DNA of 64,000 nt from Heliocybe sulcata (Eukaryota; Basidiomycota; Agaricomycetes; Gloeophyllales; Gloeophyllaceae), in contig ML213515.1 in the NCBI GenBank assembly GCA_004369045.1, positions 436,401 through 500,400 of the forward strand. Reading direction: 5' to 3'. Under the pieces are notes generated by a model. It was not told where the DNA came from. It saw only the letters and a program-made list of their open reading frames with translations, and searched no databases. Positions within the stretch are counted from its first letter, which is position 1, and every line of letters starts with the position of its first letter. Below, in pieces: positions 1,747 to 48,949 of the stretch. Position numbers and translations under genes: made by a program.

Positions 1747-4700
1747 ATGGACGCGACAGCTGCCGCCGCCACCGCACAAGACAGGAACGCTCAGATTCTC
1801 GCTACTTTGCATGAGAAGCTGAAGGTGGACAATGTGGAATCGTTCTCGGCTGCTTGTCATAAGCTAGCGCGTTGGCTCCAAGACGGCAGAGCTTATTACA
1901 AGGCGGCGAGACCGAAGGTAAGTTGCACTTGCAGTCGGTCGGTTGGGCTTAGGCTGCTGGACACAGACTGAGCTAGGCGGTTGTATACGACACCTCGAGT
2001 GACTCGGTGAAGTCTGATATAAGTTGCTATAGATAGAGGACTCAGCATTCGTCCGACTGTTGTTTACGTTCGTGCAGTTTGACGTACTTAAACCCATCGA
2101 ATCCGTCTTTCGCGACATCCACAGAACATGTTCAGACTTCTCGTGCTTATATTACACGTCTCTCGACATTTCTCTGACTTCTCTGACTTCTTGTATATAC
2201 AGATAGTCGAACTCCTAGAAACGGCTTCGGCTACGGCACGTAGAAACACCGCAAGAGAAGTGGCTAAGCGGTCTACACAGATTTCCCGATGGTGGTTAGC
2301 ATATCAGAGCCTAGTGCAGGTCATTCAAGGCCACGCTAAACTGTTTGTGGAATCTGAGCTGCAGAGTAAGCCTTTTTCTGCCTCCCCTAACACATGTTTT
2401 TAAGTGGGCATTTGTAGAACGTCTCGTTGATGTCCTTGGACAGGTTCCATCGGCATCGGAACTGTCCCCGTCATCTGGGGAAGCTCAGTCTGTTGTCACA
2501 GCGCAAGTGCAACCATCAGGAGCTGCCTCAGCGCAGCCCCAAAGGGCAGCACAAGGGACTGCAGCTAGCCAGAAGGCAGCAACAGCATCACCAGCACAGG
2601 CATCCACTATTCAGACTCATACAACGGCTACGTCGTCCACTGTTTCAAGAGAGCCTCACGGAGCTGTACCTCCTGAGTCTGCCATAACAGTACCACAACA
2701 TGTTGCGAGTAAGGCTCCTACAGCGGCTGCATCGCCCACTGTCTCCGAACAACCTCCTACTGCCCATCTGTCTGCGACTGCTGGGCCGTCCTCAGCATCG
2801 GCAATCAGATCCGCACCGTCAGCGGAGTCGAATGCTCTCAGTTCATCGCTGGCCATTCGAGACAAGCAGCGTGCAAAAATCCAAGGCTGGAATCTTCCTC
2901 AAGGACCAGGCAATAGCCTAGCTTCCTTGCCGAACTCCCAAACGAGAGGTGCGGCGCATTCTGCCACGCCTGTGACCGTGCAAGGGCTGGCTATGGCTAA
3001 CCCATATGCAACAATGCCTTATGTTCAGTCTCCACCCACCGCTTCAGCTCAGCCACATCCTGCCCCGGCCGTGACCGTGCAAGGGCTGGCTATGGCTACT
3101 CACCCTGCACCAAGGCATTATGTTCAGTCTCAACCCACTACTCCAGCTCAGCCGATCCCTACCTCGGGTCCATCTTTCCACAGCGTGTACCCATCACCAT
3201 ACCTGTACCAAGCTGGACCCCTTGATCCCAATTCATACCGCCAGGCGAATCCGTATGGCTGGACGTACGGTCAGCCGGTCTATGGTATGCCTATTATTCA
3301 AAGGGCGCCTGGTCAGCTGGTACCTGCCGCGTCTATCGAGACGTCTCAATCTATTCAAACTAGCGGAAGCATGCGCGGGCAGGGTTCCCCTCCTGCTCCT
3401 GCTCTCGCCCCTGCTCAGCCTCTCCCTCAAGCTGTACCTCAAGTTTATGCCAGCACTGCACAGCCTGAGGCTCCCCCTCCTGCTCCTGCAGCGGGCCCCT
3501 CGAGATCTTCACATGCAAAGCCTCATGGCCAGGCGAAATCTGCCAAGCGGGCGATGTCTATGGCAGAGCTCGCACAGCTCGACATGGAGTATTACAACAA
3601 GAAGCTCAAGCACACTACGGGCACAGCAACCTCAACGACGGCGAAGGCAAGTGGTACGGAAGCTGAAGCCCTTGCCTCTGCAAGTGCTACGGTGGCCTCG
3701 ACGTCTAAAAATGCTGCAACTTCATCGCCGGCTTCCACTTTGCCTTCGGTTGACGACCGGCAAGTTGGCCCGGCCACTGCCCGCCTGCTCAGCCCACGGA
3801 AGAGCGCGAGGATGGGGACGAAGCTGAAACTTCCTCCAGGGGTACGATCCTCCCCTGCTTCGAGTGGAATGTCGCTCGAGGAGACTTTGACTTCGACATC
3901 CACTGATATTGCTGCTGCACTGAATATGGCTTCGACGTCTGTCGCTTCGGTTATAGGCGACACTGTAGCTTCGCTGTCTGCTGCCGTACCAACCACCGCG
4001 AACGATACCGGGACCACAAGTACAGCGATTGTCCAGCCACAGAACGATTGGGTTAGTGCTCCCTTGGATGGCATGATCGACTATACAGGAGGGTTTGTGG
4101 AGGAGCCACAATCGGCGGAGACGCAGCCAACAGCGCAAGCTACCGAGGTGGTCGCGGATCTCACGGCTACAGCGGAGGATCCTCTGAAGGCAGTGGATAA
4201 GGAGACGGGCATCTCTTCGCTGCCAGAAACTAACAATGATGCGGCCATGAGCGACGCGGCCGTCTCAGGAATTCCAACTGCACCTCCGCATGAGGAGGCG
4301 CAGGTTGAAGGATCCGATGCAGCAGATAATAAAAACGCGCCGGCAGCGTTTCCGGAGGCTGATGGTGATGCAGCCATGGGCGATGTCACTGTCTACAGAG
4401 ACGAAAACGTTGTCGCTGAGCCGGAGACTGTTCCCGTCGCGCCACCGCGGACTGCTGCTGGTGCAACTCTGGGCGATGTGGCCGTTTCGACTGAGGGATC
4501 TATCGCTCCCGAGCAGGCGACTGCGCCAAATGCCACTGCAGATGCAGATACGACCATGGGCGATGTGGCCGTTCCTAGTGGCACGACTGTCATCACCCAG
4601 CCGGAAGTTCCCGTTTCAGAACGCAATGACCATGATGATAGGGCGGCACCTTTCATGGACACTGCAGTGTCGAATGAGCGAAAAGCCAGTGCCGCGCCTG

Positions 4701-6628
4701 CCGCTCAAATTCAGGCCCCTTCGGACACTGCTCTCTCGGAATCCGCTCAGCCTACCAAAGCCGAGGAGCCAGCGCCTTCAACGCCTGCTACTGCGGAGCC
4801 GTCGAGGTCCGTAGATGTCCAGCCACAATCTCTACCATCGGAGTCTGCGATTGAACCCTCTCCTGAACCTGCGCACAGCGGATCGATTTGGTCTGCCTTT
4901 GTGTGGCCTGCGTTACCTCTTTCGAATTTCCAGGAGCCTTCTGAAAATGAGATCCCTGCAGCTGGTATAGATGCAGCAGTAGTGGCGTCTACTGAAGCAA
5001 GTCTGCTAGAACTTGAGCCTGTCGTCCAAGTCGACGGCTCAGGTTCTGTGACACCGACATTATCGAAAGATTCCATAGCCGAGTCCTTCATGCAACCAAA
5101 TGATGAGACTGTGCCTGCGGACACAGATGCTGCCACGTACACTGCGCCAGGAGCAGAGAGTCAGGGCGTCAAAGGCGCAGTTGACGAAGATATGGGAACC
5201 GTACAAGAAAACGTCAAACCCCACGACGATGGATCCGACGCTGCGGAGGTTTTGGAAGATGTCAAAGGCGATAAGGGTGCCCAGGTTCCGACTCAGCAGA
5301 AGCCGGCATATACGGACGTCGAGCCATCAATTCCAAGCGCAGAAGAGTCTCGCAGCGCCGTAACCGAGGACATTGAGATGTCTGAAGAGGACACGAGTGG
5401 CCCCAGCCAGACTCCTGCAGAAGAGGGGACAGCAGCTGCTTATATAGACGTCGAGCCGAATTCAACGGAGCCGATCCAGGCCGTGTCTCAAGGACCTCCC
5501 ACTGAGGATGTGGAGATGGCCGAGACTGAAGTAGTCGAGACTAATCCAGCAGAAGCAGAGCTATTAGGTGAAGCGCGCGCAGATTCAGACCCTGAAGTTA
5601 CACCTGTTCATGAAGACTCGTCCCGTGAGATAACCGACGTCCTAATGGTAGCACCGGTCCTCGAGAGCCAACCGACGGCGTCACCGGTCGCTGACGTGCA
5701 CCGTGAGGATGCTATCTCTGCGCCAGGTGCTGAGCCTATAACCCTCGACATTTTGCCGCATTCAATCCCCTCCGGGAATGACAGAGAGGGATACCCGTAC
5801 CTTGCCATTTATGGCGGCGCGTCCTCTGAGCTCGGTGTTACAAAGACAGCAACTGTAGACAAAGTAGAGCCTTCTGCTGCCCAAATCGTCGATGCCGCCC
5901 TGGATGCTGAAGAGGCGCTGAAGCAAGCCCCAGATGCGCCATCAGACGCTGCTGAGCGGGCTGACGCATCTGCTGGTTCTGTGACTGAGCCAAATCCCTC
6001 GCCAGAGAGTCATTTCGTAATGCTGTACTCGATGAAATGTCTGCCTGGGCCCCGGCAGCACCAGCATGTTCTCGAATTTCACTTGAATGTCGAGCAGCAT
6101 GGGATTGTTCGTCAATGGTCAAATCGAAGGTCTATACCAGGTAACAGCTTCGAGAGTGGGCTGTGTATCAGCTTGGTGTGCTATCGGTCAACAAATCTTC
6201 CTTTGGTAGACCAGGATGCGACGGCACGTCCCAGAGCGGAGTGGCCTAACACTGGGACGATGTGGGCAGTGATCAACGAAAGCGAGGGACGCGAGTTATA
6301 CCTTGTACCGGCCTTCCACGTGAGTGTCCACGGTACGTGTTCCATGAGATTGTCTAACATCTCTCCTTAACAGATCGACAAGGACGGTTTGGTCGACATC
6401 TCTTCTTACATTAAGGAGGGCGACAACAGGATGCAAGTCTTCTACAGTGGATGCTCCTCCGACTACACTGTTGTACTGCAAGCTCACTCTCCAACACCTA
6501 CGCAAGCACAGCTTGAAAGAGATAGGCGGCGAAAGGATTTAGAGAGGGCGACTTACCTGACAAAGTTGGCAGAGCCGATAAAACTGCCCAACTTTAATTG
6601 GGATACCGGGATGTTTGAGACTGCCTGA
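1747..6628 (+). CDS. Large low-complexity protein with C-terminal PINIT/ZMIZ-like domain
   Basis: Start at 1747 (MDATAAAATAQDRNAQI). The exon-1 donor is at 1918 and exon 2 begins near 2033. Two more short introns lie near 2130-2212 and 2369-2418, then one very long exon runs to 6319. The last intron is 6320-6373 and the stop is at 6628. The N-terminal ~150 residues are helical and free of low-complexity sequence. The middle ~1,000 residues are Ala/Pro/Ser/Thr/Gln-rich and probably disordered. They contain repeats: VTVQGLAMA twice, and a (T/A)MGDV(A/T)V motif several times. The last ~200 residues are globular, with VLEFHLNVEQ, a WP motif, DISSYIKEGDNRMQV and YTVVLQAH. Their order resembles the domain that precedes the MIZ finger in ZMIZ/Tonalli proteins, but no zinc finger follows. 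The C-terminus is homologous to the product of 21225-23780. A role in SUMO or transcription is only a guess. Confidence 0.75.
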
Positions 6629-15497: not shown

Positions 15498-16685
15498 CGG
15501 ACGCGTCGAGCGCAGCGTCGAGCAAGGTACCAGTAGATATCGGACAGTGACGAGAGGGAACGAGCGGCGGGAATGAGCCTCGCGGTCGCGTAGGACGTGT
15601 GAGCGTGGACGACGCGAAGGGGTGTATCAGCAACCCCTCTAAAGCGCGTCGAGTCGCGCGTTCCGGGTCGGCACAGTTCTTCGCCGCCCGGGTGGCCGCG
15701 CTTGGCCGTACCGGACCATAACTGCCAGGTACCGGAGTCTGACAGGAGGCAGACCTTCGACACCGTTGACCTTCTGAAGAGAATGCATGGTGCATAACCA
15801 AAGGCAGAAAGAACCAAAAATCACCTATCATTTCCAAGGACTCACCGCATGGAGGGTACTTGAAATCGGAAACGGGCGATATATCAGCGAACGGCAAAAT
15901 AGTCTCTCTGCAGCTTACAACCTATAAGATGATACTGTATGGAAGTCGGTTTATCCTATTTGGCTTGTGAGACGTAGGCGGTAGGATATTGCAATCGTCT
16001 GGTCGCTCGAACGTGATGCATGATGGTCCGAAAGAAAGAGTGCGAAGGTCAACAACGCAGTCGCTGCACTCTTTATATATGTCCGTCGACAGAGACACAG
16101 CAGAAAGCCCAAAGGAAATCGTCGAGAAGCATCTGCACCGCGATCAAAAAACCAAAATTGGCAAGCCGATAAACATAAGCAGCCGACGCGGCATTCAATG
16201 ACATCATTGGTGCTGCCACAATACAGGGACCATTGTGGCTTGTGGCTTGTGGCCGACAATAAATGTCCTCTAGCAAGCCACACCGCCGCCAGAGCGTGGA
16301 TTTCTGCGCGGGCAGTTGTGGTGCAGCTTGAGTGGTATGTGTCCGGGGCCCTAGTTTTCCCGCCACATGTCGGAGACTTGTCGCTTTCCGAGCTGCTCGG
16401 CGTATCACGTCTGGCTCTTCATCGTGACACTTGTTCTTCATCCCATCGTTAATCGTGCCGACTTCCAGGCGAACCGAGAGGCTACACTAGATTTCTACTG
16501 GCAAGTCATACCTAGCCAGGCATCCGGCGAGATACGGCGATAATTAAAGTCTAGCGCATGTGATCCTTCTCGTCTGGGTACTGTCAAAGAATTTCTGGAT
16601 TCGTCAGGATACCTGCTCCCGAACTTTCTCTGAGACTCTTACCCTGTAGGGGTTCCACAGGTTCTCAAGCACCGTTCTTTCCGGT
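15498..16685. other. Intergenic region without recognised gene
   Basis: Lies between the divergent Whi5-like gene and the PrpF gene. Open frames here are short or are shadows of the Whi5-like first exon. A short direct repeat (tgtggct) occurs near 16236-16250. It probably holds both promoters; nothing else is supported. Confidence 0.4.
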
Positions 16686-17939
16686 ATGTTTATTGTCCGA
16701 AAATCGCTTTTGTCTAGCAGCGCATTGCTCCGGACATGCACAGGCTGCCGGGCGCTATCGAGCGCCAGTAGTACTGGCAAAGCGCGTAATCCGATACCTG
16801 CCACATTCCTGCGCGGCGGCACCTCGAAAGGGATCTACCTGGACCGCTCCGACCTGCCCGCCGACAAATCGCAATGGGACCAAATATTCCTCGGTATAAT
16901 GGGCTCCCCAGACCCAGAGTACGGGCGGCAGCTCAACGGGATGGGCGGCGGCGTCTCGAGTCTGTCCAAAATATGCGTCGTCGGACGCCCCACAGAACCG
17001 CGCGACGGCATCGACGTCGAGTACACGTTCGCACAGATCGGAATCCGGGACGCCACGGTCGATTATTCGGGGAATTGCGGCAACCTCTCGAGCATGATTG
17101 GCGTCTTTGCGGTGGACCAAGGGATGTGCGGGCCGGACTTGCTCCTCCAGCGAGGCAGCCCTACGTACGATATCGCCACCGTACGCGCGTTCAATACAAA
17201 CACCGGGAAGCGCGTCGATACGTCCTTTCCTATCTCTACAAAGCAGCGCATTCCCCTGCTGGATCTCCCACAAGCTACTGTGGCTGGTGTGCCTGGCAAA
17301 GCATCGCGGATAACTCTGGATTTTGTCTCTCCCGGTGGGGCTAGGACGGGGAAGCTCCTCCCAACTGGGCATACTGTCGACGACATCGACCTGACCGGGT
17401 TTGCCTCCGCACAATCCCCAGGCATACGTACCTCCCTGGTGGATGCCACAAATCCAACTGTATTTATCTCCTCTGAAGGCTTGCGCGAAGCAGCGGGTAT
17501 AGCCGCAGATGCTTCAATCGACTATAACAGCGCGCCAGTCTCTAGTCTGATCGAATACATAAGGCAGCGGGGCGCTGAGAAGATGGGATTGGACCCTTCC
17601 GCACAAGCGCAGCCCAAAATCGCCGTGCTCTCCGCACCCACAGCCGACGACACGGGCGTAGACATCGTCGTGCACGCATACTCCATGGGTGTGCTGCACA
17701 AAGCCGTTCCTATGACACTAGGCTTGTGTCTGGGTGTCGCGGCGAAGGTCGGGGGCACGCTGGCGCGTGACATCGTATCACCCCTGGGTGGTCGGGCAAA
17801 CGAGAAAGAATTGTTGACTATACGCCATCCTGGTGGAACCGTGGACGTTGGGGCCGATATGACGCCGGAGGGAGAGGTTAGGAGCGCGAAGGTTGTAAGG
17901 ACTGGGAGGAGGCTGATGAAGGGAAATGTATGGTGGTGA
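16686..17939 (+). CDS. PrpF/3-methylitaconate isomerase family protein, probably mitochondrial
   Basis: Single-exon 417-residue protein of the PrpF (DUF453) family, a diaminopimelate-epimerase fold. Bacterial members isomerise aconitate-like or methylitaconate-like substrates. Residues 1-32 (MFIVRKSLLSSSALLRTCTGCR...) are basic and Ser/Leu-rich, like a mitochondrial targeting peptide. The family body then begins with IPATFLRGGTSKGIYLDRSDLP. Further family segments are NGMGGGVSSLSKICVV, VDYSGNCGNLSSMIGVFAVD, DVKFD-like turns, and a C-terminal block with LGLCLGVAAKVGGTLA and IRHPGGTVDVGAD. The SGNCGN segment holds the Cys typical of the fold. Length is normal and the frame intact. Lack of introns amid intron-rich neighbours and a bacterial-type family suggest, but do not prove, horizontal origin. 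Confidence 0.9.
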   Translation: MFIVRKSLLSSSALLRTCTGCRALSSASSTGKARNPIPATFLRGGTSKGIYLDRSDLPADKSQWDQIFLGIMGSPDPEYGRQLNGMGGGVSSLSKICVVGRPTEPRDGIDVEYTFAQIGIRDATVDYSGNCGNLSSMIGVFAVDQGMCGPDLLLQRGSPTYDIATVRAFNTNTGKRVDTSFPISTKQRIPLLDLPQATVAGVPGKASRITLDFVSPGGARTGKLLPTGHTVDDIDLTGFASAQSPGIRTSLVDATNPTVFISSEGLREAAGIAADASIDYNSAPVSSLIEYIRQRGAEKMGLDPSAQAQPKIAVLSAPTADDTGVDIVVHAYSMGVLHKAVPMTLGLCLGVAAKVGGTLARDIVSPLGGRANEKELLTIRHPGGTVDVGADMTPEGEVRSAKVVRTGRRLMKGNVWW

Positions 17940-30627: not shown

Positions 30628-32200
30628 TCAGATAGTCCAACCAGCGGGTAGCTCCTTACGCAGATTCGCTGATGGCGGAGGCGGAAACGCAGCGTTGTGC
30701 GCTTCGGAGGTCTGATGTCGTGTGTCTGGTTCTAGAGTAGGATCCCTCTCTTCATTTGGACCCGTCGTCGTTTCCATCTCTTGCTCCCAAAACCATTTCG
30801 GCAGAAATCCTACCCTTTCCTCGCCGGCTTCAACGTCCTTTACACCGTCCTTGTCCAACGCCGACAAGCTCACCCCTTTCCCGGGCATGAACCGAATGCG
30901 CCAGACCTGGTTAGAGTTCTCGGGCTCTTGTTGGACGACTGTCTTGAGGTGAGACAGGAACCGCTGTCCCCAGTCCAGGCACAGTTGTGGGTCCCAGGCC
31001 CCGGGTTTCCCGCGGATGAGGCGCGGGAGCTCGATGGTCTTGAAGGATTGGATGGTGGTTAGACGGCCACTTGGGGTGCGGAAGCCGACTATGATTTCCT
31101 GGTACATGCATAGGTATCAGTATCGCGGACAGAAGGCAGCAGAAGAAGCTTACAGGGACGCCAAGGAGAAAGGATTGGAAGTAGAACTTCAACAGCTTCC
31201 TGAGATTCGAATGGCGTTTAGGTATGGAAAGTCGATATGCGTTTTGATATACGCACTTTTCGAAGCGGGCTTCGTCTCTCTGATCACGGATAGATAAAGA
31301 GGTTTTAAGCTCTACGAAGGCATCTTTCCTTGTACCTGAAAACTCGTTTGAGTTATGGGGCTCGATAAACCTTCCGAACTGAGTACCTCGAATACAGTCC
31401 ACCTCCCCGCCAATGACCATTCTGATATCGCCTAGTTTTGTCTTGACAACGTTGCACCATTGGACATTCGTGTCTACATCCCCACCCCAGCCTGATGGAC
31501 GATCCGACAGAGACTCTTGACCGTCGAGTTTGGAGGAGGTGCACCACGACTCAAACGCGTAGCCGTAGTACGTCTGGGTGCGTTGTCGTGGGTTCATGTC
31601 CTCCCTACGGAAAGGTATAAATATGCGTAATCAAGTGGTGAAATGTACGCACTTCTGTTTGAGCCGCTCTTCGGATGAATGCTCTTCGAGATAGAGCGTT
31701 CCGTTGAGGTACATGACACTTAGATCCCAGCCGTCCCGCTCTTCGTACGGGGCCGTCAGTATTCTCCCTCCCATAGCTGTCAATACGAGTGTATAATACA
31801 CAATATGCTAGACCTCTGCTCACTTGGTCATTACGCCTCTCCAAGAGACCACGCCAATCTCGGGCATGCCTCCCTGCCTATCCCTCGCTCTCGTCCACGC
31901 CTTGAGCAAGCTGTCGATGCGACCTCTCTCTTCAGGCCTCTTGATCCACCTCTCATATCCGTATCCCAGTTCAGCACCGCGCGGCGGGTCCGCATAATAC
32001 CTCATTGCGGAGTCATCCCATACCAAATCATGAGATGGTGTATACGAGAACGTCAAGAGAGATGTTGGTTGCTGGAAGGGAACGGGTTTGACCTGCAATG
32101 CTTTGGAGACAGATGGATAAGCCAGTTCCTCCTTGGTCCCGCGTATCCTCTTGCTGGGAGGAATGGCCTCATCAACCTCTGCAATTTTCCGTTTGGACAT
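30628..32200 (-). CDS. RAI1: Decapping nuclease Rai1/DXO family
   Basis: Nuclear 5'-end quality-control enzyme with pyrophosphohydrolase/decapping activity; fungal Rai1 also stabilises the 5'-3' exonuclease Rat1. The ATG at 32200 gives MSKRKIAEVDEAIPPSKRIR, a basic start. Conserved blocks follow: ELGYGYERWIKRPEERGRIDSLL, EIGVVSWRGVMTK, GGRILTAPYEERDGWDLSVM, and YYGYAFESWCT. The metal-binding GGEVDCIRG precedes FVELKTS, which completes the acidic active site. Then come KFYFQSFLLGVPEIIVGFR and the Trp-rich C-terminal region WDPQLCLDWGQRFLSHL. About five short introns separate the exons. The tail (about 60 residues) is Pro/Glu-rich. All catalytic motifs are present, so the gene looks functional. 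Confidence 0.93.
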
Positions 32201-41301: not shown

Positions 41302-43661
41302 TACGATCGTGGCTGTAGCCTTGAAGTGGTACAGTAAGTCGGGAAGGCTGTGGCGACCGAGGCTGTGTTTGCGGGAGAGGACGCGCAGGCGACACGGACT
41401 TATGAGGAGCACTCAAAGCTTCGCGAGGGGAAGACAACGGCGGTCGCTTTGAGACTCCGATGCACGCTCAAGATGACAAAAACACCGTGATCCATTCTCC
41501 TCCTACTTTCGGCTATTTACGGCAGAATGTCGGGGGTCCTATGCAGAATATGATTAAACAATAAACTAAAGGGGCTGAACACTAGCGCGAAAGCTCGGAG
41601 GAGATGATACTACTCGTAGAAGGCAAGTTGGAGGAGAGGGCGAGGAGGCGAGGCCGGAGAGCCTACCGGAGTCGGGTCTGAAGCTCAGCACTCAGCGCTC
41701 AAAGTCCGACCACACCGACCGTTATTTTTACTCTTGCTAGATGATCATGAGAAAGGCGCCTGAGAGCAAAGATGCGAGAGGATTGACGTCTTCTCCGCAT
41801 GTCTCCCAGCCTCGCTAATTCGCTGTCCACCAGCGCTCCGTCTGCACTATGCCTGCGGCTCCGCTGTCAATCTTCCACCCGAGCTGTACACGCCGTTCAT
41901 CTGCCAAGACGTCCACACGCGTTCCGTCCACAGCCTGAGGTCCGTCGCGCACAGCTTCGACGGATCACCTCAGAAATAGCTCACATCTCGGCTAAGTTCA
42001 TGCTGATGTAGCTGGAATAGCGCTGGCGTGCTTGTGTTCGGCCGGCGCCAGCCATACTGTTCCCCGTCGACGTGATAGATGTCTACGGAGAAGGGTGATG
42101 AACATGATGGTTCGGCAGGAGCGACTCACGATTACTGTCCACGAGGATAGCGTGCTGTTGACGATGTGATATATTGCTGTTGGATCTGGAAGTGGAGAAC
42201 CTGAAAAGGACAGCTCGTCTTGTTCGCGAAAGAATGAGACCGACGTGGGTTGGGAGCTCTCTACGGTCAGAATCCCTCAGACCATCAAGCGAGGAGACGT
42301 AGATCCTGACGGGTAATCAGACGTCAGGATAGTACATCATAAAGTACTGTTGATATCAGTCTGGAGAATAATACAACTCACCTTGTTCGAGAAGATGTAC
42401 CCCCGCAATTTCGGTGGTCGAGAGACATCCCATCGAGTGGCCATTCTGGGGTCAGATAGAGAAAAGCGTGGTATATCACGGATCGCAGGCCAACGACAGA
42501 TGATGACAAGGCCCGTAATATCACAAATCAGCTCACAGTAACTGAGAAGATGGACAGAGACGGGATGGACAGCCGTATGCAGCGGCTCCGATTAAGATCC
42601 TGCACCGCGCTAGTGTATATCTCGGAAATAAGCACCTAATCCTGTACCGAGAGCTGCGATGAATACTCACTGGGTTATCATCCCACCCTGCATCGTCAGC
42701 GCAGAGGCAGGGACTTGCGCATAGGTGCTTGCAATGGCGTTGTGTCGAATACGGGAGCCGGTACCTCTGCATCTGTTCCTAATGTTCAAAGTGATGATCA
42801 GGGCGGGCAAGGGGGTGAGCCACATTATCTTGCTCGGCCGAGCCTCGATACGCGTAGACCGTTGATGATCATACCTTCGATGCATTCGAGTCGCTCATAA
42901 TTTATTAACTGAATAAGCCTTGCACAGTTCAATCACAGTATCTATACAGACGAGCCATTAATTAGTCTTAATTCCTCAGGCATAAGTAGTATTAGCCGTA
43001 CCTGACTGGGACGGTGTATTATCCATGCCCTGCCTCAATTAATCACGAGAAGAAATGAACGCATGCCCGCGACTCGTGCAAGTGAAAGTCGCTCACCTCA
43101 AATGTCCTTTAGCCGCACTGCTTGGCACGGGCATAAATCCCAATGCTGAGAGACTACCACTGCAATTACAGAGTTCTCCCGCTCTTGCCGGTGATGTCAT
43201 CATCTGAAATATTGATACGCGTAAGGTTGGCGCAAGACGCACAGCTGAAGAAGGAACGACGGGCGATCGAGAAGAAATGCGATCAATGCGGCTGTACAAC
43301 TAATACGACTCGGCTAGCTCGGCTATAATTCTGGTCAGCGAAGGCGGTACGCAGGGGAGCATATCGCCAAATACGTTGTTGACGAGCCATGCAGAACCAA
43401 AGTTGTAGAAACGTCCGAGCGACCACAAACTGTGGCATCGATGCAGGTCAACTCGGAGTCTTGCAAGGCGCAGCCCTTTTGCATTTTCCAAAGGATCAGA
43501 GTCGACTGCACGATGCGTTATCGGCGTACACATGGGCAAATAGCCGGCATACATCCCCGTTTCATGAGAAGTCGCATAATGTCGCACTCCGATGGAGAAG
43601 ATGGAGTAAAGCATAGTCTGAGTAGTAACTAGTAAACGAAGGACGGACGCAAACAAGGAGC
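41302..43661. other. Long upstream region and gene-poor interval
   Basis: 41302-41780 is the probable promoter and 5' UTR of the Crz1-like gene. From 41.8 to 43.65 kb no gene is supported. A minus open stretch (42885-42667) and short frames around 43.1-43.3 kb show no recognised motif. A minus open frame 43677-43300 ends at the palindromic insertion and is not recognised either. The interval looks like decayed or non-coding accessory DNA. Confidence 0.4.
43654..43661 (+). repeat. Left target-site duplication (caaggagc)
   Basis: Eight bases immediately outside the left end of the palindromic element, repeated exactly at 45835-45842 just outside its right end. This marks insertion with an 8-bp staggered cut. 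Confidence 0.88.
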
Positions 43662-43840
43662 CACCTGGGCTGCCCAAATGAGCGGTCTTATAATACTGGA
43701 CATACGACCCACTGACCCAGTATTGTAAGACTTAATACGCCAGGTTCCTAACTCCGGCGGAAGAGCCAGCGGAACCGCCAGCGTTAGTAACCAGAGGCCC
43801 AGCAGCACCGCCGGAGCCTCGTTGATGACTCCGGCGGTAC

Positions 43841-44326
43841 CTACGTGCGAATAAGCAAGCCGCGTGCCATCCAAATTGAGCTGTGTGGCGGGCGCTCCGG
43901 ACGGCGCGATCGGCATATCATTGTCGTTGTCGCGCACGACGTGGACGAGCATACACTGTCTGCTGGGGAGAGAAATTGATAATAAGGGTATAAAATCGTT
44001 ATATATTGCCTCCATGCATTGGAGAGGATGCACTTGGCAAATGCTTCCGCGGCTTCGCCATGACAGACGTTGTAACCCGGTATGGGACTGTGGGAAAAAC
44101 ATATGGGTATGGAAAATGGTGGTAGAATGGCTCCTAGAAAATCGCAAGAATGTCCAATAAATGGGAGGATATTTAGAGAGACTTTTGGTATATGCCTGTA
44201 TGCATTTGCAGCCCAATATCTTTCCAGGCTTCCTACACCTTCCAGAATAAGTTTATCTTCATCCTCAGCTGCAGGAATAGTGAATCGAAATTTGTGTCCC
44301 TCAGAAACATCCTGAACCACTGACAC
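43841..44326 (-). CDS. Left-arm open reading frame of the palindromic element (161 aa)
   Basis: Runs outward from the centre: MSVVQDVSEGHKFRF, then EDEDKLILEGVGSLERYWA and hydrophobic or aromatic-rich sequence, with a different character in the last ~40 residues. It is mirrored in the right arm at 45170-45655 with one residue difference. I recognise no transposase motif and no known domain. It may be a captured gene fragment or an open frame kept only because the two arms are homogenised. Confidence that it is a real protein is low. Confidence 0.25.
   Translation of the reverse strand: MSVVQDVSEGHKFRFTIPAAEDEDKLILEGVGSLERYWAANAYRHIPKVSLNILPFIGHSCDFLGAILPPFSIPICFSHSPIPGYNVCHGEAAEAFAKCILSNAWRQYITILYPYYQFLSPADSVCSSTSCATTTMICRSRRPERPPHSSIWMARGLLIRT
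43845..43959 (-). other. GC-rich exon-like island in the left arm
   Basis: Within otherwise AT-rich arm sequence, 115 bp are GC-rich and bounded on the minus strand by CAG (43962-43960) and GTAGGTA (from 43844), as a spliced exon would be. One frame reads MLVHVVRDNDNDMPIAPSGA and continues to TRLAYSH. The mirror copy is 45537-45651. It looks like a host exon captured by the element; the source gene is unknown. Confidence 0.35.
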
Positions 44327-45169
44327 TCTGTATTAACCATATTCTAATGCATCTCTACAGGTTTACTTAGTACCCCTGAGAATTATATCCACTGCATCCC
44401 CAGATACCACCTCTGCATGGTACCCCTCCTGCTACTTATGCACGCACAAGGGAGTAGTATTTAAACAATATACCACCGGATACAGCATAACTAGCTATAT
44501 AAAAGCCTTAGCTGGCCATCCAAACACCCCTAGGATATCCCCAGGCTTCAATATGATACATGCCACTCATAGTGCCTATCACAGGCACACCTCCTACCAT
44601 AGGGATGGACCCACTGAGCTTGGTGGCATAAAAACATGGTACAACACTCCCAATTTAACTATACTCAACAATAATAACTTGTCCCAGAGAATACCAGCCA
44701 TTAGTGGTACCACCATGGACAGCGAGTGCCCTCAAGAGAACGGCATTAAAGCAACAACCCAGAAACACACCACAACGACATACCAGCACAAACAAAGAAA
44801 AAGAACACACCGGACAAGTTATGAGAATTAACTATACATAAAATGAAAGTATTGTACCATATTTTCATGCCACCAAACCCAGTAGCTCCATACCTATGGC
44901 AGGAGGTGTACCTGTGATAGGCACTATGAGTGGCATGTATCATATTGAAGCATGGGGATATCCCAGGAGTGTTTGGATGGCCAGCAAAGGCTTATATATA
45001 GCTAGTAATGCTGTATCCAGTGGTATATTGTTTAAATAATACCCCCTTGTGCGTGCATAAGTAGCAGGAGGGGTACCATACAGAGGTGGTATCTGGGGAT
45101 GCAGTGGATATAATTCTCAGGGGTACTAAGTAAACCTGTAGAGATGCATTAGAATATGGTTAATACAGA

Positions 45170-45655
45170 GTGTCAGTGGTTCAGGATGTTTCTGAGGGAC
45201 ACAAATTTCGATTCACTCTTCCTGCAGCTGAGGATGAAGATAAACTTATTCTGGAAGGTGTAGGAAGCCTGGAAAGATATTGGGCTGCAAATGCATACAG
45301 GCATATACCAAAAGTCTCTCTAAATATCCTCCCATTTATTGGACATTCTTGCGATTTTCTAGGAGCCATTCTACCACCATTTTCCATACCCATATGTTTT
45401 TCCCACAGTCCCATACCGGGTTACAACGTCTGTCATGGCGAAGCCGCGGAAGCATTTGCCAAGTGCATCCTCTCCAATGCATGGAGGCAATATATAACGA
45501 TTTTATACCCTTATTATCAATTTCTCTCCCCAGCAGACAGTGTATGCTCGTCCACGTCGTGCGCGACAACGACAATGATATGCCGATCGCGCCGTCCGGA
45601 GCGCCCGCCACACAGCTCAATTTGGATGGCACGCGGCTTGCTTATTCGCACGTAG
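45170..45655 (+). CDS. Right-arm open reading frame of the palindromic element (161 aa)
   Basis: Mirror copy of the left-arm frame, reading away from the centre. It differs at one residue (FTLPAAEDED here, FTIPAAEDED on the left). No domain recognised. Since both frames are read outward from a common core, any promoter activity in the core would transcribe both; convergent read-through of the whole element would give a long hairpin RNA. Confidence 0.25.
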   Translation: MSVVQDVSEGHKFRFTLPAAEDEDKLILEGVGSLERYWAANAYRHIPKVSLNILPFIGHSCDFLGAILPPFSIPICFSHSPIPGYNVCHGEAAEAFAKCILSNAWRQYITILYPYYQFLSPADSVCSSTSCATTTMICRSRRPERPPHSSIWMARGLLIRT

Positions 45656-45834
45656 GTACCGCCGGAGTCATCAGCGAGGCTCCGGCGGTGCTGCTGGGCC
45701 TCTGGTTACTAACGCTGGCGGTTCCGCTGGCTCTTCCGCCGGAGTTAGGAACCTGGCGTATTAAGTCTTACAATACTGGGTCAGTGGGTCGTATGTCCAG
45801 TATTATAAGACCGCTCATTTGGGAAGCCCAGGTG

Positions 45835-45842
45835 CAAGGAGC
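45835..45842 (+). repeat. Right target-site duplication (caaggagc)
   Basis: Exact copy of 43654-43661, directly adjoining the right end of the palindromic element. Confidence 0.88.
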
Positions 45843-47901
45843 GCGTCTGATCTGATTTAGAGACCCCGTGCACCTATATTTCGGAAAGTGCCGAAACTGC
45901 CGTCGGGATTGGCTGGCTCCGGCCGACGCTGACAAATCACATTCCCCGCCGATACTCAAGTGGACCACGTACGTATGACTCGACGTTATGCTTCAGTCTG
46001 CTACGATACAGAGGAAGGATCGTGGCGTGTCTGTGTGAGTAGGCGATAGATTCGTTCGAACTTGCAGGCTCACTGAGCAAGACAGATTAATATCATAGAC
46101 GTGGCCATTGCCGAGACCAGTTTCGGTCAATTGCCGTTGCGTTCCGGTTTCATATTCTCTTCTCAGCTAGCCTCTCTGTCCGACAAACGCTTTCCCTGGG
46201 GGCAGTCATATCAGCCGAACGTTGATGCAAGGATCATGGGCGCTAGATTTAGGTTCCCTCAGGCATCCTCAGTATAGCAAGTCGAGTCCCTGTAGGCTCT
46301 TAAAATACGCCCTTGGGATCATTTCCATCAAGGCGACGCTGATCATCTCCACCACCAGAGCACCTTAGTTCGTCTACTTTACGTTTCGCCCTGAGCTTCA
46401 CTCACATTACGCTTACCTCTCCCCATGGTTGCCAGGGACAGGCGAAAGGAAGTATTCAATCCGACGTCTCCAGCGCCGAGTGCGGATGGGCGAGTCAGGG
46501 TCGGATGTACGGACAAATTCCGTGACTCGCAGAGAGCCGGCGGCCTCGGGAACAGCGATAACGACTCCCGATGAAGAGTGCGCTGAACCCCTATAATCGG
46601 AGACTTCCTAATCGCCACTGACTTTCCGGGCGATATGTCGGGACTCCTGATGCGAACAACCCTAACCCGACTGGCCTCCTCTCGTCGGCGGCCATCGCGA
46701 CTTGATCCAGTATCCTTTCTTAATTTGGACCCTAGTGCAAGGCACCAGGTACCTTTACTGTACCACTTAAGCTGACGCTTAAGTTTAGCAGACGTCGTTA
46801 CACTATATCTTCTGTATTCACGACTGACTCGCCCTCGCCGTCGGATAATGCATGGATCGCCAAAACCTCTTAGCTTCCTTCTTGGCAGCAGTGACGGCCT
46901 GCATCATCTTGGAAACGCGGTCATATTAAATGATTCCGGTGAGCAGTCGCCGTCTCTCAGAATACCCGGATGATGTATGGCACGGCTAATGCATCTCACC
47001 TATCCATGCACGGCATATCAAGTGTGATACAAGATGCTAAGGACGTGTAGACCGCGGTGTGAATCGGAAGGCATTCTGTCATTCAGCTGTATACCCGCCT
47101 TTAGCGTCGAGCATCGCGATGAGACGGAAGAGCATCTTTCATCTGTTGACTTTGTCGAGAGCGCGTATGGTGGTATTGTTTTCGAGTAGGTGCATTGGGA
47201 TCCAGTACCATTAGATATCCCTGGCGCTCGTCAGGCAGGTCCGTACTTTTCACAAACGGGTCAGTGGATGAGTACCGGCGTGCTTGAGGGATTGTCTGAC
47301 ATTCCAACCTGCTGTCCCTTCATGGTCTACCACGTTTTCCATTGCGCCCGCTCAGATAGCCACAGGCAAATGCAGACAATCACAACCTGATCCCGAAAGA
47401 TATATAGGCGGCCTCCGATGATTCAGCGCTACTGCACGGCCGTCCAGAGCGGACCAGCTGATATACCTTTAAGGGAGATATCCGTTGCAGGGCAGGAATG
47501 CTATGAAGGCATATATGACAAGTTGGCAATACAAGGAATCCGCTGGCGGAATGGGATCACTTGATACAGGTGGTGGCTTCTTGCTCTTGACGCATTCGCA
47601 TTTTTACGACATTTCCCCGCAGAAATCGAATCTCACAAGGAGGGCACAACATACCACTGAGCATGCAATTTGCCTGGGACGAGAATACAGGTGTCGACCG
47701 CTTCCGCGTGGCACGCATGACATCGCACTGGAGGCCGCTGAGACAGTCCCAGTTGTATCTTCTGTGCTCTGCGGCGTAGACCATATCGATTATATCAGTT
47801 GGCAAGAATGCCCACTCTCGCCTTTGATATCACGTACGGCAAAACTACCCTAGGATGTCCGACCATACTTATAGTCTTCGCTCTCTGTCGAACCCCCTAG
47901 G
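45843..47901. other. Gene-poor interval
   Basis: About 2 kb with no gene recognised on either strand. Short open frames at 46618-46379 and 47307-47101 (minus) and 47485-47853 (plus) carry no motifs. The last ~100 bp before 47902 form the probable promoter of the pantothenate-pathway gene. Confidence 0.4.
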
Positions 47902-48949
47902 ATGGCGACCCTCATGGTCAAGACACAAAGTCTGCGCCCCGCTCTTAAACCTTTTCCTTCTATATCCGCGGCGCGGAGATGGATGAGCGTACGACCTCCA
48001 GATGCTAGCGATAATAACGAGGTCGGAGCAACCCCTTCACGTGCGTAGTGTTTAAGACTTTGCTCGTGATAACCAATACTAACATACAGTGGCCTTTGTA
48101 GGCAGAAAGAAGGTTACCATACAGCACCTTCGCCAGATGAAACAATCCGAGACCCCCATTGCAATGGTCACCGCATACGACTTTCCTACTGGTCGAGCCT
48201 GCGAAGCTAGCGGAGTCGATATCACCTTTGTGGGAGATTCCTTGGCCCAAGTCTGCCTCGGGTACGACTCGACTACGAAGCTATCCCTAGATGAAATTAT
48301 CCATCACGCCCGTGCCGTTGCCCGAGGGAGTAAGAACCCTTTCCTGGTGGTGGACATGCCATTCGGGTCCTATCACGTCAGCTGCGAAGACGCAGTCCGC
48401 AATGCCGTGCGTCTGATACAAGAAGGCGGCGCTGAATGCGTCAAGATGGAAGGTGGCGAGGAGCTCGCGCCCACCGTGCGCGAGCTGACCAGGATGGGTA
48501 TCCCCGTCATGGCGCACCTCGGTCTCCTCCCTCAGCGAGTTTCGTCTCTGTCGGGATATCGCGTCCAGGGCAAGGACGCCGCATCAGCGCGAGCCGTGTA
48601 CAACTCAGCCTTGGCTTTGGAGGACGCAGGAGCTTGTTCTATCGTCTTGGAGGCGATACCCCACCTCCTCGGGACGCACATTACGAACAAGCTGTCTGTG
48701 CCTACGATCGGCATCGGCGCAGGCCCTAATACGAATGGGCAAGTTCTGGTGTGGGACGACCTTATGACGAGGTGGGAAGGGCGCAAGGCGAAGTTTGTGC
48801 GGCGGTTTGCTGATGTGCGAAAGGAGGAGACGAAGGGTCTGTCGGAGTACGTGAACGCGGTTAAGGCGAGGGCCTTTCCGGATATAGCAAACGAGAGTTA
48901 CGAGATGGACGAAGCGGAGTGGAGACAGTTCCTTGCAGGACTCGACTGA
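47902..48949 (+). CDS. ECM31: 3-methyl-2-oxobutanoate hydroxymethyltransferase (ketopantoate synthase)
   Basis: Catalyses transfer of a hydroxymethyl group from methylene-tetrahydrofolate to 2-oxoisovalerate, the first committed step to pantothenate and CoA. The start at 47902 gives MATLMVKTQSLRPALKPFPS, an Arg/Ser-rich leader consistent with mitochondrial import. One intron (48041-48089), with a clear actaac branch site, joins it to the enzyme. KVTIQHLRQMK and ITMVTAYD-like PIAMVTAYDF begin the TIM barrel. GDSLAQVCLGYDSTTKLSLDE, PFLVVDMPFGSY, GGAECVKMEGGEE, PVMAHLGLLPQ and PTIGIGAGPNTNGQVLVWDD follow, covering the metal and ketopantoate sites. The stop is at 48949. Length and motifs are complete. 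Confidence 0.96.

Follow-up and report, generated by a model that had tools for sequence, protein, structure and literature searches.

The 2.2-kb near-perfect palindrome found in Heliocybe sulcata raises the question of how such a structure was inserted, by which kind of transposase, and what the differences between its two halves record. In the 64,000-nucleotide stretch analysed here (the window), the inverted repeat occupies positions 43662-44684 (left arm, + strand) and 44812-45834 (right arm, − strand), with 1023 nt in each arm and 127 nt between them. As the initial annotation had described, there is no net length difference, and the arms align with 34 mismatches over 1023 positions and zero indels within the arms. 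The inverted repeats thus make up 2046 of the 2173 bp of the element, the TIR-dominated organisation that characterises foldback-type elements, and the termini, CACCTGGG..CCCAGGTG, are of the CA..TG type. The word CAAGGAGC was found at 43654-43661 and again, as an exact repeat, at 45835-45842, in both cases immediately next to the terminal base pair of the palindrome. Since the bases adjoining the two copies differ, the duplication is exactly 8 bp, as had been claimed.

The word CAAGGAGC is not itself rare, with five occurrences in the window, both strands considered, against 2.8 expected, and the weight of this evidence lies in the exact placement of its two copies. When pairs of 8-mers with the same start-to-start spacing of 2181 bp were drawn at random 200,000 times, the two words were identical in 8 cases. 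The terminal 24-mer, with up to three mismatches allowed, was found in the window only at both ends of the element and in 0 of 100 shuffles, and the copy number of the element within the 64-kb window is one. The duplication had been regarded as proof-level evidence of transposition by a cut of 8-bp stagger; the insertion is well supported as a unit, but that wording is slightly overstated for a single, occupied site. When the insertion site is rejoined, a 130-aa minus-strand frame spans it.

Within each arm, further self-complementarity was observed near the terminus. Arm positions 2-84 (43663-43745 on the left, mirrored at 45751-45833 on the right, the arms being identical here except at arm position 11) present the motifs ACCTGG..CCAGGT enclosing a 16-pair stem in a fold with RNA parameters, which was rechecked; with DNA parameters (z -3.37), the inner stem was retained and the outermost six pairs were lost. 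The folds also revealed a second, imperfect inverted repeat at arm positions 82-131, with 68% identity (43743-43792, and 45704-45753 in the right arm, identical in both). Between the arms, the 127-bp core (44685-44811) is rich in A and C on the + strand (94 of 127 bases). The idea that this core is a decayed extension of the palindrome was unsupported (p 0.53 by base and 0.27 by purine/pyrimidine, 2000 shuffles).

Regarding coding content, the arm frames and pieces searched, which included three of the six arm read-through translations, returned no significant match in Pfam, NCBIfam or PDB, and for these pieces the earlier statement that no transposase is recognisable holds. A decayed transposase in the inner arm was rejected, since searches up to E 10 with three read-through frames and a 125-aa piece drew no match. 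A captured host gene was also considered and dropped: an outward frame in the CpG-normal part, opening with the ATG at 45580 and mirrored in the other arm, resembled an alpha/beta hydrolase start, and nothing was found for it up to E 10 in Pfam, NCBIfam, PDB or plasmid searches. Its best codon score was 0.08; for the best-of-six scores of the window, the median is 0.04 and the 75th percentile 0.097. A match to a Kazal-type Pfam model at E 0.2 was discarded, and nine plasmid records retrieved with the inner arm at E 0.1 or worse, seven of them under a gluconokinase gene, were taken as chance. Rfam gave zero matches up to E 1. In viral_contigs and genome_contigs, which are viral and prokaryotic collections and therefore weakly informative for a fungal element, 4 and 13 candidate stretches and 55 candidate stretches, respectively, were obtained, none of which was confirmed by tblastn at E 1e-3, and viral_contigs contained neither of two end patterns searched as exact strings.

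The differences between the arms are graded along their length, with 2 mismatches in arm positions 1-616 and 32 in 617-1023 (Fisher p 1.6e-11), and one identical run spans 455 bases. Base composition is layered as well. A change point in CpG content near arm position 417 makes each arm a composition mosaic, in which the outer ~417 bp (43662-44078 and 45418-45834) are normal and the inner ~600 bp (44079-44684 and 44812-45417) have the lowest CpG content of the window. The observed/expected CpG ratio was 1.10 in arm positions 1-440 and 0.16 in 441-1023, the latter being lower than in all 1212 583-bp windows outside the element. These layers could alternatively have arisen by capture of unrelated sequence. 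CpG deamination was rejected as the origin of the arm mismatches, since both arms have their CpG sites in common except at position 816. The lack of indels among the 34 differences is itself below the expectation for freely decaying DNA.

It could be argued that the palindrome was produced by assembly or polishing, through inverted duplication of one true arm or through equalisation of the outer arms by short reads, which would be unable to distinguish the two sides of the 455-base identical run. Nevertheless, a simple duplication would explain neither why the mismatches are graded and strand-biased nor why 8 bp outside the arms are exactly duplicated, and an artefact is highly improbable. Polishing could still have removed real outer mismatches, creating or sharpening the gradient.

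The inner mismatches are also biased by strand, a pattern spotted after the fact and not predicted beforehand. Among the 62 plus-strand bases involved in 31 inner mismatches, T was never found. Over the whole arms, both + strand sides were A or C in 26 of the 34 mismatches and G or T in a single one, and by type A.C mismatches numbered 17 against one G.T. In the inner part, the difference between A/C and G/T mismatches was 26, and the largest value in 20,000 strand-symmetric simulations was 18. This asymmetry is consistent with transcription in which the minus strand would be the sense strand, and the strand-asymmetric mutation process that the centre seems to record was perhaps transcription-linked. 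The same bias might instead reflect selection for a minus-strand RNA hairpin, in which 17 of the 34 mismatches become G.U pairs; A.C exceeds G.T on the + strand, and RNA of 44400-45100 folds at -521.9 kcal/mol from the minus strand against -439.3 from the plus strand. However, of the remaining 17 mismatches, 15 read on the minus strand as C.U, U.U or G.G, which pairing selection should purge, and the unpaired core is equally biased, so that selection on pairing is an unlikely source of the pattern. Taken together, gradient, CpG layers and strand bias suggest a layered element whose arms were homogenised from the ends inward and whose centre kept strand-asymmetric mutations.

As for parentage, the 8-bp duplication and the CA..TG ends allow a KDZ (Kyakuja/Dileera/Zisupton), hAT or P-like origin, and Mutator fits less well. 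A non-autonomous Zisupton/Dileera-like element, mobilised by the KDZ transposase of an autonomous relative, is a tentative candidate at somewhat less than even odds. Among basidiomycetes, 8-bp duplications were reported for Dileera of Puccinia and CA..TG ends for Kyakuja (PMC12730594), whereas Kyakuja itself is described there with 7-bp duplications and without TIRs. In Cryptococcus, KDZ1 has TIRs of 241 bp and 8-bp duplications, and KDZ2 and KDZ3 have TIRs of 139 and 169 bp, respectively, with duplications of 4-8 bp (PMC12810828); these repeats are a likeness to the present arms, yet they are far shorter than 1 kb, and the elements described in that work are transposase-bearing and 9-11 kb long. 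KDZ likeness was judged here by such published descriptions. The KDZ transposase (PF18758) was absent from the arm frames searched and from the 30 window frames scanned, out of 62 with at least 150 aa.

A non-autonomous hAT element, as the duplication length had led the initial annotation to propose, is possible, albeit doubtful. The CA..TG ends were counted in its favour, and the element ends, which we take to be unlike the usual hAT ends, against it. The target preference reported for Hermes, nTnnnnAn, is not matched by CAAGGAGC, with A at position 2 and G at position 7, nor by its reverse complement GCTCCTTG, with C and T; Ac, unlike Hermes, is without this specificity according to a review, and the preference is not universal in hAT. 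The length does fit, 8 bp being the usual hAT duplication in the cited account (PMC12730594), but it is shared with the basidiomycete KDZ elements. Active non-autonomous hAT members were also reported in a mushroom (PMC9674265).

The long arms had been attributed to foldback or Mutator-like elements, and the first attribution agrees with the architecture described above; a Mutator-like foldback is permitted and not favoured, and was considered rather unlikely. Mutator duplications are of about 9 bp (range 8-11) compared with 8 bp here. The CA..TG ends, atypical of MULEs, were counted against this origin. Plant MULEs typically carry long TIRs (PMC3310237), which was counted in its favour. Tm1, a Mutator/Foldback element of root-knot nematodes, resembles the present element in its composite TIRs, its MITE-like members and a within-element TIR identity of 93.15% on average; as described, it differs by duplications most often of 9 bp (8-10 bp in 45 of 53), short tandem motifs in its TIRs and transposase-bearing members (PMC3169594). 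Tetris of Drosophila virilis, a foldback-type element of animals described without a known transposase of its own, shares long inverted repeats on either side of a variable central part, the lack of a conserved ORF in the cited description and 8-10 bp duplications, and differs by tandem repeats within its TIRs, several known copies and an animal host (PMC4079207). Galileo, a foldback-like member of the P superfamily, has TIRs of about 1 kb or more (up to 1.2 kb, and above 4 kb in one copy), TIR-only copies without transposase, and duplications mostly of 7 and sometimes of 8 bp (PMC4168063, PMC2775673). Its relatives, however, carry transposase segments, it is known in the cited work from Drosophila, and its target consensus GTATTAC is unlike CAAGGAGC, so that the length fits and the sequence does not; a Galileo-like origin is very unlikely. 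In a mushroom, the TSD-TIR-loop-TIR-TSD element of the Agaricus bisporus A locus has no intact transposase as described, and an empty site was demonstrated in another strain; it differs by a 9-bp duplication, TIRs of 93-96 bp and a loop of 972 bp (PMC10051438).

The preferred reading, to which a probability of about 0.88 is given as a whole, is that of one copy of a foldback-type DNA transposon, 2173 bp long, non-autonomous and moved by cut and paste, involving one insertion, a borrowed transposase, arm elongation, outer homogenisation and a strand-asymmetric centre. A transposase encoded elsewhere in the host genome would recognise the CACCTGGG..CCCAGGTG ends and insert the element through an 8-bp staggered cut, to which the exact duplication points indirectly. 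The long arms would have grown from terminal repeats that were once shorter, probably as one end was copied from the other during repair. The break in composition and the gradient of mismatches suggest that this elongation enclosed an inner palindrome, older and depleted of CpG, in outer sequence with normal CpG content. The outer arms may thereafter have been held alike by conversion or recent copying, and the less converted centre would gather strand-asymmetric changes.

Foldback elements are already known, and in other respects this isolated copy, which has no known parent, is an unexceptional transposon insertion, most likely made by the ordinary cut-and-paste mechanism with a borrowed enzyme; the interest lies in the mismatch gradient and the strand bias. 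To our knowledge, the origin and upkeep of the kilobase arms of foldback elements are unsettled. A palindrome sets both strands of one sequence against each other, and its mismatches reveal strand-asymmetric mutation directly, while the gradient may show the reach of conversion; the differences between the halves may be a record of the element's copying and mutation since insertion. Any transcript across the element would fold into a long hairpin, from which small RNAs might be made. More speculatively, the palindrome might act as a natural recorder, in which end-initiated conversion erases outer changes, the centre keeps a strand-asymmetric, transcription-linked signature, and younger ends are layered around an older, formerly methylated palindrome. 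If this were true, the arms of foldback elements would grow outward at their ends.

The element consists of two inverted-repeat arms of 1023 nt, located at 43662-44684 (left) and 44812-45834 (right) and separated by a core of 127 nt, an architecture that had been described in the initial annotation and that was confirmed here as ungapped, though 34 of the 1023 positions are unlike between the arms. Its termini are CACCTGGG..CCCAGGTG, and the sequence CAAGGAGC adjoins the left end at 43654-43661 and the right end at 45835-45842, so that the exact 8-bp flanking duplication previously noticed also held. The argument from this duplication rests on position, since CAAGGAGC is not a rare word (five occurrences in the window versus 2.8 expected); 8-mer pairs placed at the same spacing were identical in 8 of 200,000 random draws. 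The 24-base end, with up to three mismatches allowed, was matched in the window only at both ends of the element, and in none of 100 shuffles. No further copy of the arm was found by self-comparison of the 64-kb window (E 1e-3), in which a direct repeat of 101 bp near 3 kb was the sole other self-match, and the rest of the window yielded a single weak inverted pair of 30 bp at the settings used. Two adjacent ~98-bp copies, 83% identical, were observed at 2957-3153, within a Pro/Ala/Ser-rich reading frame of 1351 aa (2315-6370) that had no Pfam match. When the empty site was rejoined (42500-43661 with 45843-47100), a 130-aa minus-strand frame spanned the insertion point.

The frames of the right arm (45170-45655 and 45283-45855) and of the left inner arm and core (44337-44831), together with shorter pieces and three of the six read-through frames of the core plus right arm, presented no significant match in Pfam; a Kazal-type match was discarded (E 0.2). 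The pieces had no match in NCBIfam, nor in the PDB up to E 10, and thus the earlier statement that no transposase is recognisable was borne out for the frames and pieces searched. Rfam likewise gave no match to the element up to E 1. The window contains 62 unspliced frames of at least 150 aa, and a Pfam scan of 30 of these, excluding those of the element, found matches in five, none of them a transposase: a sugar transporter, PrpF (16650-17939, E 4e-78), a partial RAI1-like nuclease domain (30911-31630, minus strand, E 4.2e-38), ketopantoate hydroxymethyltransferase (48083-48949, E 4.6e-106), which was the closest Pfam-matching frame downstream of the element among those scanned, and Cupin_8.

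The exact duplication, the matching ends and the lack of recognisable coding sequence fit a single insertion of a non-autonomous cut-and-paste transposon with foldback structure. Its superfamily may be ranked with KDZ (Kyakuja/Dileera/Zisupton) and hAT first, Mutator third and P fourth, no evidence being decisive. Duplications of 8 bp are reported for hAT, for one Dileera and for Cryptococcus KDZ1, and for three copies of Galileo, a P-superfamily foldback element. The hAT assignment initially suggested agrees with the duplication length; however, the duplication does not fit nTnnnnAn, the target preference reported for the hAT element Hermes, and KDZ ranks alongside. Kyakuja is described as having CA..TG ends, as in the element, but 7-bp duplications and no TIRs, unlike the element. 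As to the Mutator suggestion, 8 bp lies within the 8-10 bp described for the Drosophila virilis foldback element Tetris, which its authors put in Mutator from duplication length and analogy. No relative was confirmed in the viral, prokaryotic and plasmid collections searched, which are poor places for a fungal element.

The mismatches between the arms were strongly graded, with two in arm positions 1-616 (counted from the outer end inward) versus 32 in 617-1023 (Fisher p 1.6e-11). From outside to inside, the counts per 100 bp were 1, 1, 0, 0, 0, 0, 1, 3, 7 and 15, followed by 6 in the last 23; the longest run of identity was 455 bp (arm 162-616), and the mean mismatch position, arm 871, was reached in none of 100,000 permutations. 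No trace of pairing was found in the 127-bp core. A need to conserve the ends bound by a transposase would probably not have guarded 600 bp, which argues that the outer arms were copied recently or converted more often than the centre.

A second layering, common to both arms, was observed in composition: CpG observed/expected was 1.10 and G+C 0.545 in arm 1-440, versus 0.16 and 0.425 in arm 441-1023, the CpG ratio of the inner part being lower than in all 1212 583-bp windows outside the element (minimum 0.59). The best change point lay at arm 417 (log-likelihood gain 22.2 versus at most 9.6 in 500 shuffles). At each end, arm 2-84 is self-complementary and is predicted to form a nested hairpin, with a second, imperfect hairpin predicted at 82-131; under DNA parameters the inner stem and second hairpin were kept and the outermost six pairs lost, and 43662-43800 had a stability z of -3.37, equalled in none of 200 shuffles.

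The two arms set a single sequence against its own complement, and if mutation were strand-symmetric, plus-strand mismatches of the A/C-A/C and G/T-G/T classes should therefore be about equally frequent. The observed classes were 26 and 1, with 7 mixed (sign test 4e-7), and in arm 751-1023 the 31 mismatches had no T on the plus strand, their bases there being A (34), C (23) and G (5), with a class difference of 26 versus a largest value of 18 in 20,000 strand-symmetric simulations; the bias was spotted upon inspection of the mismatches, and neither value is that of a preset test. The same bias is seen independently in the core, where A+C accounts for 94 of 127 bases; windows of this length taken every 20 bp across the 64 kb all had less (at most 0.732). 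A competing explanation for the mismatches is that selection favours an RNA hairpin of the minus strand in which G.U pairs form, but it would leave the equally biased unpaired core unexplained. Read on the minus strand, the mismatches are consistent with A and C having changed to other bases, if that direction is assumed. For the vertebrate non-transcribed strand, PMC2927911 reports A to G above T to C, and likewise A to T above T to A, in mammalian introns, where T and G are in excess at equilibrium; a surplus of A to C that is small or absent; and, in fish, C to T above G to A along whole transcripts. The match with this direction, in data that are vertebrate rather than fungal, suggests that the element may be transcribed with the minus strand as sense.

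The observed structure, duplication, composition layers, gradient and bias could be brought together in a mechanism in which a transposase borrowed from elsewhere would cut at the CACCTGGG ends, and one end would be copied from the other during repair, lengthening and equalising the arms from outside inward. The inner CpG-depleted palindrome would be older and formerly methylated, and the centre would escape conversion, retaining its strand-specific changes.
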